From Bdellovibrio sp. SKB1291214 (lineage in GTDB: Bacteria; Bdellovibrionota; Bdellovibrionia; Bdellovibrionales; Bdellovibrionaceae): a DNA stretch of 64,000 bases. Below the pieces are notes generated by a model, which made no database searches, was not told the origin of the DNA, and was given only the letters and a program-made list of their open reading frames with translations. The stretch lies in assembly GCF_002209355.2 (NCBI RefSeq), contig NZ_CP106855.1, positions 124,001-188,000 of the forward strand, written 5' to 3'. Shown piece by piece: positions 10,343-16,675 of this stretch (position 1 is its first letter; each line of letters begins with the position of its first letter). A program made the translations under genes and the position numbers.

Positions 10343-13300
10343 ATGCGAATCGGTAAAAAAATAACAACCACTTTTGCGATACTGGTGCTCGGATTTATTG
10401 CATCCGTTGCGCAAGCTTCTCCGCAAAAACTCACATATCAAGGCCGCATTTTAAACTCTGCTGGTCAGCCACTTACTTACAACGACGTCTCTTTTAGATT
10501 CCAAATTACTTCAACAGATGGAACGTGTGTTCTTTATTACGAAGAACGCCAACACGTGAACATGCAAAACTCTGACGGTATTTTTGATATCGCAATCGGC
10601 GATGGAACTGTGATTTATGCGGCAGGTGGTGCAAACAAACTTTCTGATTCATTCACAAATGGAATTACATACAACTGCTATGGTGGCGGTACTTGGAATG
10701 CGTCTGCCACATCTGAACGCCTTTTAAAAGTGAGCTTTCATGATGGAACTGGTTGGCAAGCGATTGATCCTGCCAACACAATCCGTTCCGTGCCTTTTGC
10801 GATGTCTTCATATAGCGCACAAACGTTGGCTGATAAAACCATCAACGACCTTGTGTTGAAAGCAAGTTTAACTTCTTGTTCTGCGGGCCAAGCGCTTAGT
10901 TGGAACGGCACTACGTTTAGCTGTGTGGCAACTTCCACGGGTTCCATCACAGGTGTAACTGCTGGCAGCGGTCTTTCTGGCGGTGGTACCTCTGGCACTG
11001 TGACTGTATCGCTTGCAAACACGACAGTAACTGCAGGCACATATGGTTCCGGCACTTCAGTTCCCGTATTTACGGTTGATGCTCAAGGCCGTATCACAGG
11101 AGTAACGCCAACAACCATCACAGGTGCGGCACCAACTGGTTCTGCAAGCGGTGACTTAAGTGGTACTTATCCGGGACCGACAATCGCAAACAGCGCTGTG
11201 ACTTCAGGAAAAATTGCTGACGGTACCATCGTAGGCGCAGATTTAGATTTTACCGGCACTAACGTTGCTACTTCTGGTTTGGTAATTAAAGATTCAACGG
11301 GTAAATTCGCAAACTTTGCTTGTTCAACCGTGGGCCACGTCGCTACGTGGACTGTAGTCGGTTGGGCCTGCCAAGCTCCCTCAAACACGGACCCTACGAA
11401 ATTGCCGCTGGCCGGTGGTACGATGGCTGGCGCTATTGATATGGACAGCAACAATGTCACTAATCTTGGCTATATGACAATGTCAGCAGGTAAAAGCCTG
11501 CACGTTTCTAACAATGCTTCAGATCCAAGCTTAGTAGCCGCAGATAAAGGTAAAATCTGGTTTAACTCGACATCGAACGAGTTGAAATACTGGAACGGAA
11601 CATCGGCGGTTGCAGTTGGTTCTTCAGGTTCTGGGATCACGACATTAACTGGTGACGTCACCGCTACGGGCCCAGGCTCGGCGGCCGCGACGATTGCTTC
11701 CGGTGCCGTGACCAGTTCAAAAATTGCCTCTGGTACTATCTTGGGTTCGAATATGGACTTCACTGGTACGAACGCAAGTACGGCCAATTTGGTTATCAAA
11801 GACTCGACAGGCAAATTCGCAAATTTCGGGTGCTCCACAAACGGTCACGTTGCGACTTGGTCTGCATCGGGCTGGTCATGTGCCGCTCCGTCTCCCCTCC
11901 TTCCTACTCTTAATGATGGCACTATGTGGATCGGAAATAGTTCCAACGTAGCGACAGCTGTGACAATGTCTGGTGATGCTACAATCACGAACGCAGGCGT
12001 ATTGTCTTTGAAAAATACAGGCACTGCAGGCACATATTATAAAGTTACAACGGATGCTCAAGGCCGCGTAAGTTCTGGTACAGCATCATTAGCTGCCTCA
12101 GATATTCCGAACCTTGATTGGTCAAAAATCACAACGGGTACACCAACGACAGCGGCGGGTTACGGTATCACTGATGCGTTTGTAAGAGGTGGTAACTCTT
12201 TTGGTGCCGCAGCTTCCATTGGTACAAACGACAGTAATCAATTAACGATTAAAACAAATAATACTGATCGCATAACGATCGACGCTGCAGGTAACGTAGG
12301 TATTGGTGGGGCTCCAGCTTATAAAGCTCATATCAGAAACGGCGTCCTTGCAGTTAAAGGTGACACCGGTTCATCGAATGCTCCGTCGACGGAATCCGTT
12401 GCTTCCTTCGACAGAGAAGCTGTCGGTGGTGTCGGCGTGAATATGTACACGATGAATGCGCAACCTGCGACATTCTATTTCGGTAACACCTCTTCACCAC
12501 AACAAGGTTCTATCAGATATCAGGTTGATGCTTCAACGCCCGCGAACCAGTACATGGCTTTCAGAGTGAATTCTGGAGAAAAAGTTCGCATCGATTCAGA
12601 TGGTGACGTCGGCATTGGTGTGACGAATCCAGCCTACAAATTAGATATTGCCGGTGACGTGAACATCACAGGTAACTTTAAAATCAACGGTACAAATATC
12701 TCGACAGGTGGCGGTACTATCACGGCATTAACTGGTGACGTCACTGCAAGTGGTACGGGTTCAGTCGCAGCGACAATTGCCAACAGTGCTGTGACAAATG
12801 CCAAAATGGCCAATATGGCGGCAAATACTTTAAAAGGTAATAACACGGGTTCTGCTGCCGCTCCGACGGACATCACGATTGCAAGTTTACAAGGCACAAC
12901 AGCGACGACGTTTGCGGCAGGTAATGACTCTCGCATTACGGGCGCCTTACAAAGTGGTGCGACGGCTGGTGGTGATCTGACAGGTACTTATCCAAATCCG
13001 ACGGTTGCAACAGGTGCAATCACCTCTGCAAAAATCCTGGATGGCACCATCGTTGGCGGCGATATGGATTTCACAGGCACAAACGCCGGTACGGCAAATC
13101 TTGTGATCAAAGATTCTTCTGGTAAATTTGCAAACCTAGGATGTTCTTCAGCGGGCGATGTTGCAACTTGGACTGTTTCCGGTTGGGCTTGCGTGACACC
13201 TTCCCCACTGCTGCCTTCGTTAGCTGATGGCAAAATCTGGGTTGGTAATGGATCAAATGCTGCGACGGCGGTGACGATGAGTGGTGATGCGACGATTTCA

Positions 13301-14992
13301 AATGCGGGCGCATTAACATTAGCGACTGTTGCAACGGCAGGTACTTATACGAAAGTTACTATCGATGCCAAGGGACGTGTGACGACAGGAGCAAACTTAG
13401 CCTCTTCAGATGTCACAACGGCTTTAACCTACACTCCAGTGAATAAGGCTGGCGATGTGATGACGGGCTCTTTAGGTTTAGGTAATTATACCGACTCGAC
13501 GGAAGCCACTTTAATCACAGGTTGGGGCGCTTCAGACAAAGGTAAAACTTGGTTCAACACGACGTCGAATGTTGTGAAGTACTGGGATGGTTCTGCTGCT
13601 AAAGTGGTAGGTTCAGTGGGTGCAAGTATCGTTTCTTTAAACGGCTTGACGGGTTCGACTCAAACCTTCGCCACTCCAGGGACTTCGGGTACGGCACCCG
13701 CTTGGTCGTCATCAGGTACTGCTCACACGCTAAATATCCCGATGGCTTCTGCGGCTTCTGTGACAGCGGGTCTTATCAGCAAAACTGATTACGACACTTT
13801 CAACGCCAAGCAAGCAGCTGGTAACTATATCACGGCGTTAACGGGCGATGTCACTGCTTCAGGTGCTGGTTCAGCTGCCGCAACTATCGCTGCGGGAGCA
13901 GTGACGACATCGAAAATTGCAAGCGGTACGATCCTTGGGACCAATATGAATTTCACGGGCGTGAATACAGCGACGTCAAATATGGTCATTAAGGATTCCA
14001 CAGGCAAATTCTACGATTTCGGATGTTCTACCGCGGGTCATGTTGCCACTTGGACTGTCTCTGGTTGGGCATGTCAGGCAGTCACTGTGACGGCTTCAAG
14101 TTTTGGAACACAAACTCAAAAAACATTCTTAGCAGCTCCCACTGGTGCGGACGGTGCGACTTCGTTTAGAACGATCGCCTCAACTGACTTGCCATCTTCA
14201 GTTTATTTAAACGGCGGTAACTCATTCGGTGCTGCTGCAACAATAGGTACTGCTGACGCCAATTCATTAACAATTAATACTAACGGCAGTGCTCGAATGA
14301 CTTTCCTTTCAAACGGTAAAATCGGTATCGGCCAAACGACTCCGACTTATGCTTTGGAAGTAAACGGTTCTGGCTCGGCCGGTGACTATACGACAGCACC
14401 CATTAGCACTGACGGTAACTTGCGCATGGGTGGTTTCGACTATTCCTCAGCACAAGGCCGTGGTGTCTTGATGGCAAAAGTTTACGACAGTACGAATGCA
14501 CACAAAGGTTACATCTACTTTGGCACTCCGAGTGGTAATGGTGTTGCCGTTCAAATGAGAACTGCGGACCAATCCATGTCGACAAGTATTCAATTGATCA
14601 ACTCTGACGGTCGCTTAAGCTTCCAAACTGGCGGCACAGAAAGAATGTCTATTGCCAACGCAGGTACAATCACGACTAAATATGCGGTCGCTGGTACGCC
14701 CACAACTGTTGCTGCTGCGGCGGTTGACCTTTCAACAAGCAATACTCACACATTGGCATCAGTTGGTGGCTCGACAATCACATTGTCCAACATGGCGAAT
14801 GGTGGTCACTATACTTTGGTGATTACAGACACAACGTCGCGCACATACACATTCTCAGGTTGTAACTCCACGAAATTCTCGCCTTCAAATCAGGCAACAG
14901 TTTCAGGAACTCCTTCAATCTATTCCATCATCACGATTTACAATGGTTCCACTTACGACTGTTACGTGACTTGGTCGACAGGATATAACTAA
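10343..14992 (+). CDS. giant secreted repetitive fibre protein (tail-fibre/adhesin-like)
   Basis: 1549 residues. Signal peptide 1-25 (ending VAQA), then an N-terminal domain (about 26-165; SPQKLTYQGRILNSAGQPL, VPFAMSSYSA) also seen at the base of other bacterial fibre proteins. The shaft has repeats of about 78 residues: full copies start near 270, 437, 877 and 1168, a degenerate one near 798. Each runs GD-L/V-T..., AVTxxKIxxGTIxGxxMDFTGTN, VIKDSTGKFANFGCS, HVATW, GWxC. Two phage-fibre-like modules (GGNSFGAAA...IGT...LTI.TN, then GNVGIG or GKIGIG) lie near 615-650 and 1290-1335. The C-terminal 100 residues form a distinct tip with two Cys. No intramolecular chaperone is visible. Resembles the mosaic trimeric fibres described in Bdellovibrio; prey-binding role inferred. 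Confidence 0.8.
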   Translation: MRIGKKITTTFAILVLGFIASVAQASPQKLTYQGRILNSAGQPLTYNDVSFRFQITSTDGTCVLYYEERQHVNMQNSDGIFDIAIGDGTVIYAAGGANKLSDSFTNGITYNCYGGGTWNASATSERLLKVSFHDGTGWQAIDPANTIRSVPFAMSSYSAQTLADKTINDLVLKASLTSCSAGQALSWNGTTFSCVATSTGSITGVTAGSGLSGGGTSGTVTVSLANTTVTAGTYGSGTSVPVFTVDAQGRITGVTPTTITGAAPTGSASGDLSGTYPGPTIANSAVTSGKIADGTIVGADLDFTGTNVATSGLVIKDSTGKFANFACSTVGHVATWTVVGWACQAPSNTDPTKLPLAGGTMAGAIDMDSNNVTNLGYMTMSAGKSLHVSNNASDPSLVAADKGKIWFNSTSNELKYWNGTSAVAVGSSGSGITTLTGDVTATGPGSAAATIASGAVTSSKIASGTILGSNMDFTGTNASTANLVIKDSTGKFANFGCSTNGHVATWSASGWSCAAPSPLLPTLNDGTMWIGNSSNVATAVTMSGDATITNAGVLSLKNTGTAGTYYKVTTDAQGRVSSGTASLAASDIPNLDWSKITTGTPTTAAGYGITDAFVRGGNSFGAAASIGTNDSNQLTIKTNNTDRITIDAAGNVGIGGAPAYKAHIRNGVLAVKGDTGSSNAPSTESVASFDREAVGGVGVNMYTMNAQPATFYFGNTSSPQQGSIRYQVDASTPANQYMAFRVNSGEKVRIDSDGDVGIGVTNPAYKLDIAGDVNITGNFKINGTNISTGGGTITALTGDVTASGTGSVAATIANSAVTNAKMANMAANTLKGNNTGSAAAPTDITIASLQGTTATTFAAGNDSRITGALQSGATAGGDLTGTYPNPTVATGAITSAKILDGTIVGGDMDFTGTNAGTANLVIKDSSGKFANLGCSSAGDVATWTVSGWACVTPSPLLPSLADGKIWVGNGSNAATAVTMSGDATISNAGALTLATVATAGTYTKVTIDAKGRVTTGANLASSDVTTALTYTPVNKAGDVMTGSLGLGNYTDSTEATLITGWGASDKGKTWFNTTSNVVKYWDGSAAKVVGSVGASIVSLNGLTGSTQTFATPGTSGTAPAWSSSGTAHTLNIPMASAASVTAGLISKTDYDTFNAKQAAGNYITALTGDVTASGAGSAAATIAAGAVTTSKIASGTILGTNMNFTGVNTATSNMVIKDSTGKFYDFGCSTAGHVATWTVSGWACQAVTVTASSFGTQTQKTFLAAPTGADGATSFRTIASTDLPSSVYLNGGNSFGAAATIGTADANSLTINTNGSARMTFLSNGKIGIGQTTPTYALEVNGSGSAGDYTTAPISTDGNLRMGGFDYSSAQGRGVLMAKVYDSTNAHKGYIYFGTPSGNGVAVQMRTADQSMSTSIQLINSDGRLSFQTGGTERMSIANAGTITTKYAVAGTPTTVAAAAVDLSTSNTHTLASVGGSTITLSNMANGGHYTLVITDTTSRTYTFSGCNSTKFSPSNQATVSGTPSIYSIITIYNGSTYDCYVTWSTGYN
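11150..14085 (+). repeat. in-frame tandem-type repeats inside the fibre gene
   Basis: About 235-base coding repeats begin at 11150, 11651, 12971 and 13844, with a partial unit at 12734. They are diverged at the DNA level but keep phase and protein motif, so they reflect protein-repeat expansion, not a CRISPR or transposon. Confidence 0.75.
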
Positions 14993-14994
14993 TC

Positions 14995-15948
14995 ATGAAT
15001 AAAACCATCGGCTCAATCATGATGATTTTGCTTTCTGTGTCTGAGTTAGCTCTGGCACAGATTCCTGGCACGCAGACGGGATTGCCTTCGGCGCATAATA
15101 GCCAAGAATGCAAAAGCCCTGACCGTGCCGCATGGATGCCTAAAGCAAACAATGTGAAAGCTTTATGGCACATGGATGGTACCGCCGGCACGATCGCCAA
15201 CGGTGCATCGATCGCATCTGGATTTTCCGGAGGCCCTGCTGCGGCAGCGACAATCTCTGGGAATACCCTGTCTTACGCCACCTCGACAATTGCAAATTTT
15301 CGGCAGGCGATTACGGCAACAGGCGCCACAGCAACAGATACGATTTCGTTAACAAACTCTGCGACAGATGTCTCAGCAGGCACTTGGAGCTTCTGGGTAA
15401 AAATGGCGATACCCTCCTCTGGGCAACAACGTTTGTTTTATAAAAGTGATAACAACAGCGGAGCAGGTTATTTGGCTGCCATTTATTCTGACGGTACACT
15501 TGAATTCGTCAAAGTAAAATCAAGCAGCAATATGAAGCTGCAAACGTGCAAGCTAAACTCTACTTATTTCGCAAATACCTGGCGTCATATCGTTATAACG
15601 TGGGATGGAACGACGACTTACACGGCTGACAACGTGACCAATCAAACTGGCGTTAAAATGTATATCGATGGCGTGGAACTGACGAATCCTGGAGCTGCCG
15701 ACACAACTCGTTTTACAGGGACATGTTCAAATACGGGCAACTACGGTGGTTACGCTTACGCTCAGCCGGGATCAGGTACCGCCGGTGCCGATACTGGACT
15801 TCCTTTATTCTTAATGGGCATCAATGCCTCTTACACCAGTCCAACCGCCACGGCTTTTACGGGCAGTATGGACGAGTTCATGATCTGGAATGTGGCTTTA
15901 TCGGCAGCTGAAGTTGCTGCGGTCTACAAACATCAAAAGTGCAATTAG
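14995..15948 (+). CDS. secreted LamG/concanavalin-A-like lectin-fold protein
   Basis: 317 residues, ATG two bases after the fibre stop, so co-translated with it. Signal peptide 1-22 (ending LALAQ). From about 50 the pattern of a LamG/pentraxin jelly-roll is visible: VKALWHMDGTAGT, GTWSFWVKMA, WRHIVITWDGTTT, VKMYIDGVELTNPG and the closing FTGSMDEFMIWNVALSAAEVAAVYKHQ. These domains bind glycans or other surface ligands, often with calcium. Likely a partner or tip factor of the fibre, or a separate adhesin secreted with it. Confidence 0.82.
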   Translation: MNKTIGSIMMILLSVSELALAQIPGTQTGLPSAHNSQECKSPDRAAWMPKANNVKALWHMDGTAGTIANGASIASGFSGGPAAAATISGNTLSYATSTIANFRQAITATGATATDTISLTNSATDVSAGTWSFWVKMAIPSSGQQRLFYKSDNNSGAGYLAAIYSDGTLEFVKVKSSSNMKLQTCKLNSTYFANTWRHIVITWDGTTTYTADNVTNQTGVKMYIDGVELTNPGAADTTRFTGTCSNTGNYGGYAYAQPGSGTAGADTGLPLFLMGINASYTSPTATAFTGSMDEFMIWNVALSAAEVAAVYKHQKCN

Positions 15949-16015: not shown

Positions 16016-16675
16016 ATGAAACTTTTTAAGTTCCTTGCGAAATACACTCTGATTTTCGCTGTGGTAAGTATTGTCACAGTCTTCACTGCCATTGGTGGTG
16101 CGACTTACTATGTTTTGAATCACATTCACGAAGAAAATGAAAACAATCACAACCTGCATGAAGTGATGAAAATTGGCGAAGGCTATATTGACGAACTTCA
16201 ATCTTTCGAAGGCCTGCAAAAGATGCTGCAGAATAAGAAAATGCCTCCTTTTTGTAAAACCATCTGCAATCCCAGTTCGCTCAATCAGGACATGCTTTTA
16301 ACCGAGCGCACTCAGTACTTAACGCAGTTTTATAAGGCAACTGGCCCCCAAGCCCTGCAAGATCCTTTGTTCCGCTTTAAACTTGAGCAAATGGGCTCGG
16401 TTGCCAAAGCCGTCCCTGACTCCGTCCGTGGTGTGATCAAAGACGTTTTGGACAAAGATGGGATAAAATCAAAAAACAAGGTGTTACTGGCTTTGAAAGT
16501 CGAAACGACCCTGTTAACAGAGCTTCCAACCCTTTCAGAACGTCTGGAATCGTTTAAAGCGGACTCAGAGCGCCTAGATTTGGCCCGGACTTGGATCAAA
16601 GCCTGCCAGTCGGGAGCGAACTCTAAGAAAATCATGACGGAGTGTCAGGCAGAGTTTGATACTGCCTCGCATTAG
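16016..16675 (+). CDS. single-pass membrane protein of unknown function
   Basis: 219 residues. One N-terminal membrane helix (about 10-34, LIFAVVSIVTVFTAIGGATYYVL) and an otherwise soluble, helical periplasmic-side part with four Cys (CKTIC pair near 80, and two near the C-terminus at ACQSGANS and TECQ) that could form disulphides. No recognisable domain. Weak ribosome site. It lies alone between the fibre operon and gcvP. Confidence 0.6.
   Translation: MKLFKFLAKYTLIFAVVSIVTVFTAIGGATYYVLNHIHEENENNHNLHEVMKIGEGYIDELQSFEGLQKMLQNKKMPPFCKTICNPSSLNQDMLLTERTQYLTQFYKATGPQALQDPLFRFKLEQMGSVAKAVPDSVRGVIKDVLDKDGIKSKNKVLLALKVETTLLTELPTLSERLESFKADSERLDLARTWIKACQSGANSKKIMTECQAEFDTASH

Follow-up and report, generated by a model that had tools for sequence, protein, structure and literature searches.

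The locus under study lies within a 64,000-nucleotide stretch of Bdellovibrio sp. SKB1291214 DNA (the window) and consists of a long fibre gene and, directly behind it, the gene of a secreted protein harboring a laminin G (LamG) domain [Table 1]. An earlier, sequence-only reading of the window had described a 1549-residue fibre with four full in-frame repeats, an N-terminal anchor domain and two phage-fibre-like LTI..TN..GIG modules, all of which were recovered in our analysis. The four in-frame shaft repeats, 89-91 residues each, share pairwise identities of 52-71% and are beyond chance, since comparison of the fibre gene DNA with itself returned matches of up to 246 nt at 70%, with a best E of 5.5e-28. 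The cores of the two LTI.TN..GIG motifs were found at residues ~634-655 and ~1309-1330 and are accompanied by a third, diverged GIG module, and the phage tail-fibre family phrog_7389 matched the protein best at residues 534-651 (whole-protein E 8e-18). At the N-terminal end, a signal peptide is followed by a ~145-residue domain, the profile of which found matches in 24/24 Bdellovibrio genomes, at 3-30 copies per genome.

Table 1 Features of the fibre gene and of the partner gene behind it, in window coordinates
Feature	Position	Strand	Remarks
MAT fibre gene, 1549 aa, non-S74	10343..14992	+	single open frame, ATG start
Sec-type signal peptide, residues ~1-26	10343..10420	+	sequence MRIGKKITTTFAILVLGFIASVAQAS; putative cleavage site
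N-terminal anchor domain of MAT proteins, residues 25-170	10415..10852	+	profile of domain
Shaft repeat 1, residues 264-352	11132..11398	+	protein repeat alignment
Shaft repeat 2, residues 433-522	11639..11908	+	protein repeat alignment
LTI.TN..GIG module 1, residues about 629-660	12227..12322	+	sequence
Third GIG module, diverged, residues about 740-758	12560..12616	+	sequence
Shaft repeat 3, residues 871-959	12953..13219	+	protein repeat alignment
Shaft repeat 4, residues 1163-1253	13829..14101	+	protein repeat alignment
LTI.TN..GIG module 2, residues 1302-1352	14246..14398	+	match to Bd3182 structure 8ojn
Conserved C-terminal tip, residues 1443-1549	14669..14989	+	beta-sandwich in model
Coupled partner gene, secreted LamG protein, 317 aa	14995..15948	+	start 2 nt past fibre stop codon
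Mature N-terminal segment of partner, residues ~22-42	15058..15120	+	kept through LamG exchange; candidate docking segment
LamG domain region, exchanged block	15121..15890	+	homology with G012/G022; approximate limits

The likeness to mosaic adhesive trimers (MATs) remarked upon in the sequence-only reading reflects membership in that published family, of which the genus holds many relatives. Residues 1302-1352 align with 8ojn, the structurally solved part of the MAT Bd3182 (E 3.7e-5), the N-terminal domain is that of the family, and a C-terminal peptidase S74 domain is absent from the fibre, the one S74 domain of the window genome (G000, 3.68 Mb) belonging to another gene at 2.375 Mb. By sequence, the protein is thus a non-S74 member of the MAT family of Bdellovibrio. 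In the genome matching B. bacteriovorus HD100 (G006), the Bd3182 segment is present at 100% identity and the anchor domain gave 19 matches, close to the 21 MATs published for this strain (Caulton et al. 2024, PMC10769870). With the MATs of HD100 the window fibre shares a signal peptide, a conserved N-terminal beta domain, a long repeat shaft, Bd3182-like modules and exchangeable ends (PMC10769870), its place being in the non-S74 subgroup; its mosaic build is apparent from shaft modules common to paralogues and from orthologues of unequal length with the same ends. It differs from the six solved MATs in its tip family, for which no solved structure gave a sequence match, and from published MATs at large in that close species share a conserved tip and that the fibre gene is coupled to another gene for a secreted protein (PMC10769870). 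With three anchor domains by profile, G000 has the fewest of the 24 genomes of the genus, the four genomes sharing the locus (G010, G011, G012 and G022) having 5-8; so few MATs may point to a more restricted choice of prey or to a different life style.

Orthologues of the fibre occupy the same place in four more species, adjoining an H1-like gene and, where seen, lying between tldD/tldE and gcvP. Their lengths span 1052-1847 aa with the same ends; the shaft lengthens and shortens while the ends stay. Were the gene a phage tail fibre gained recently, or what remains of a prophage, this would explain the phrog_7389 match and the shaft repeats common to viral contigs, but we regard such an origin as extremely improbable and, on the strength of the neighbouring genes and synteny, ruled out a prophage fibre: no virion genes were found near the locus, the neighbours being conserved housekeeping genes, the fibre and LamG genes keep their position and synteny in five species, and the protein bears an anchor domain of its own that is present throughout the genus. 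The gene behind the LamG gene (16016-16675), encoding a membrane-anchored protein of 219 aa with no Pfam match, diverges faster than the genes flanking it, with 41-67% identity between less related species.

The C-terminal tip had been thought unique and a possible determinant of prey specificity; it is not unique, and its distribution and conservation lend no support to that role. A second, diverged copy of the last 107 residues occurs in the same genome on a paralogue of 759 aa, and relatives were found in 20/24 genomes of the genus and in 63/144 Bdellovibrionia genomes from 29 genera. When C-terminal ends were compared between species, as that reading had proposed, the tip core (last 82 aa) proved 95-99% identical among three close ones, the window species being 95-96% identical to the other two and these 98.8% identical to each other. 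The paralogue (L041:2192-4471, minus strand; G000:C1 ~86.2-88.5 kb) is followed by a secreted Gly-rich protein of 710-730 aa without Pfam match that ends in WFFRGY, and homologous fibre/Gly-rich pairs are found in G011 and G022.

In an AlphaFold single-chain model, the tip alone was confident (pLDDT mostly 75-88). The best structural match overall was a phage capsid spike (Z 8.2), and ranks 2 and 4-9 were taken by T4 gp9, CpaA, a gp10-type baseplate protein, CBA120 TSP4 and StcE (Z 4.9-6.4), all listed as sharing the XD1 fold (PMC8825819). Among coherent groups of folds, the XD1 domains of T4 gp9/gp10 and CBA120 TSP4 come nearest to the tip model (Z 5.7-6.4 for gp9, a gp10-type protein and TSP4); with a modest model and a middling match, this resemblance is suggestive only. 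XD1 domains are trimeric modules of phage attachment proteins and serve in phages as an internal spacer (PMC8825819), whereas the tip domain of the window fibre is terminal. Searches of the PDB with the tip by phmmer and profile returned nothing credible, Foldseek with the tip model gave no trustworthy full-length match, and a pattern scan revealed no tip relatives in viral contigs. A crystal contact of Bd2133 (one hexapeptide per tip trimer) was considered as support and dropped, since no kinship of its tip to the window tip was evident. Since the XD1-like fold is also a glycan-binding domain in StcE and CpaA (PMC8825819), and published MAT tips bind glycans (Bd2439; PMC10769870), the tip might itself bind prey as in published MATs, with LamG, as a secreted lectin or a surface protein, acting on its own and being no more than co-transcribed with the fibre. 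This self-sufficient tip is the main rival of the interpretation developed below, and one that we consider rather unlikely on account of what lies behind the tip.

Tip-bearing MAT genes usually have a secreted protein of varied fold directly downstream, a coupling that is new here: in the main text of the MAT study (Caulton et al. 2024, PMC10769870), a term search retrieved no operon or neighbour-gene remark relevant to coupled partners, and no reports of such fibre partners were found in the open-licence papers searched. Within the genus, a secreted ORF began between -53 and +38 nt relative to the stop of the fibre gene in 28/45 tip-bearing genes versus 4/39 MATs with other tips (Fisher p 1e-6 by gene), and the difference persisted after clustering of similar tips (11/17 versus 4/22, p 0.007). 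Under the same rule, 35/230 ordinary ORFs had a secreted neighbour. To recognise signal peptides we applied a simple hydrophobicity rule and amended a few of its calls by visual inspection; the genus count of 28/45 includes one homologous partner that the signal rule had missed (L178) and leaves out two membrane proteins (L179 and L185). Outside the genus, in genera that were not used to form the idea, about 25/40 tips were coupled, as was each of the three full matches to the tip in named public contigs. A coupled secreted neighbour is missing from about 38% of tip-bearing genes, and the tip can therefore also function by itself or together with a partner from another locus; that some tips go without a partner speaks for the self-sufficient tip. 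Among the four MATs with other tips and a secreted neighbour, only L220 (G005:C1:879900-887000) resembles a similar pair: an S74-like MAT without this tip, with a secreted protein 1 nt downstream that contains two CDMTTDGGGWTR stretches as in fibrinogen-like proteins. It is perhaps another fibre-partner type.

The partners identified by Pfam have LamG, RCC1, NHL, DUF5122 or TSP1 folds, others being Gly-rich or Cys-rich sequences. That a single tip family precedes so many unrelated secreted proteins argues against the tip as the determinant of prey specificity and against its being self-sufficient. The window partner matched Laminin_G_3 (E 7.5e-16, best stretch residues 113-237), a fold from which we infer that it is an adhesin. 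Counting the window's own, the genus has nine full-length relatives of this LamG protein, each of them encoded immediately downstream of a gene with this tip; two weak partial matches occur in long proteins elsewhere. No sequence relative of the LamG partner was found in the PDB, and its structural model (pLDDT 36) was left unused. Elsewhere in the window genome, at G000:C1:211061-212365, is a 2049-aa frame with two LamG domains, adjoining no MAT tip found here.

Despite their unrelated folds, many partners carry a short aromatic stretch just past the signal peptide (GFWK, GAFWKR, PFGFFK, SFFK or LFFRG). The pattern was fixed on the genus set and then applied to partners held out from other genera, where it was present in 10/21, compared to 16/196 other secreted ORFs (p 1.6e-5); only this held-out test is relied upon, because the first count used a pattern chosen on the same data. 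The motif is absent from the window's own LamG partner. A common N-terminal motif is unexpected for proteins acting independently of the fibre.

The comparison of G012 and G022, two sister species sharing the locus, revealed where the fibre and its partner part ways. Identities between the two amount to 97% for tldE, 98% for the tip and 93% for the gene after LamG, but their LamG proteins are only 60% identical. At the DNA level, identity is 94-99% at the fibre end and 91-97% over the first ~40 LamG codons, falls to 51-66% in the LamG domain and returns to 87-98% past it. In the LamG block alone, G012 resembles the more distant G011 and G010; the flanks do not. Informative sites grouping G012 with G011 versus G012 with G022 numbered 109 versus 19 in the LamG core, and 11 versus 34 and 6 versus 65 in the flanks. 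Because G012 thus sides with G011 and G010 in the LamG block and with G022 in the flanks, the alignments indicate that the LamG domain was replaced between species and that the signal peptide and the first ~20 mature residues of the partner stayed with the local fibre. This is a single exchange event, and neither it nor the position of the genes is proof of binding. A tip that stays nearly identical between species while LamG changes is difficult to reconcile with a self-sufficient tip; what diverges and is exchanged is the LamG domain of the next gene, outside 10343-14992, where prey specificity had been sought.

We thus consider it somewhat probable that the fibre, a non-S74 MAT, carries at its conserved tip an exchangeable adhesin that is a protein of its own, made from the next gene. 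The fibre would be exported by Sec, be held at the predator surface via its N-terminal domain, and form a long trimeric beta shaft with the conserved beta-sandwich tip at its end. For MATs of this subclass, the tip would serve as the holder of a separate secreted adhesin, not as the variable recognition part. The adhesin (here LamG) would be translated from the next gene, dock onto the tip by its mature N-terminal segment and bind a prey glycan or protein, its domain being swapped between species while fibre and tip remain unchanged. Prey binding would then probably fall to a swappable protein distinct from the fibre that holds it. Whether this extends to a two-part recognition system across Bdellovibrionia, with the conserved trimeric tip as a general socket for separately encoded secreted adhesins of many folds that are recognised by a short segment at their N-terminus and swapped from species to species, so that prey recognition diversifies via the second gene and not the fibre, we rate as an even proposition.

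The layout proposed for the window fibre is that of the long tail fibre of phage S16, in which a gp37 trimer is capped by gp38, a separate adhesin that sets host range (PMC6851490). S16 gp38 is attached to gp37 by exposed aromatic residues of its N-terminal part, conserved tryptophans making the hydrophobic contacts (PMC6851490); among the held-out partners N-terminal aromatics are enriched, although the window's LamG lacks the motif, and some Bdellovibrio partners are Gly-rich. As in the gp37/gp38 arrangement, the putative adhesin gene is directly downstream and is exchanged independently of the fibre. The likeness has its bounds, in that no sequence relation to S16 gp38 (PMC6851490) was shown, the attaching part of gp38 is a helical bundle with three Trp whereas the one proposed for the Bdellovibrio partners is a short stretch, absent in the window partner, and these partners are of many unrelated folds. 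A gene directly downstream and translationally coupled is also reminiscent of phage fibre chaperones, and the neighbour might be an assembly factor absent from the finished fibre, as T4 gp38 assists the folding of gp37 (PMC6851490). This appears improbable given that the partners carry signal peptides, adopt folds typical of extracellular binding and have only their start in common, when a helper of one conserved tip would be expected to be conserved itself.

Prey recognition by predatory bacteria is largely open, and published work seeks specificity in the tip of the MAT fibre. Should a subclass of MATs carry a separate adhesin, binding screens restricted to tips would miss the ligand and single fibre deletions would be open to misreading; bacteria would, moreover, be using the fibre-plus-adhesin layout of T-even phages. 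The proposal is testable in the type strain, because one such pair, L193 (G006:C1:684576-690423), is present in the genome that matches HD100; its tip-bearing MAT ends at 688322 and the overlapping gene, at about 688288-690423, encodes a secreted NHL-like propeller with the stretch GGFWQK.
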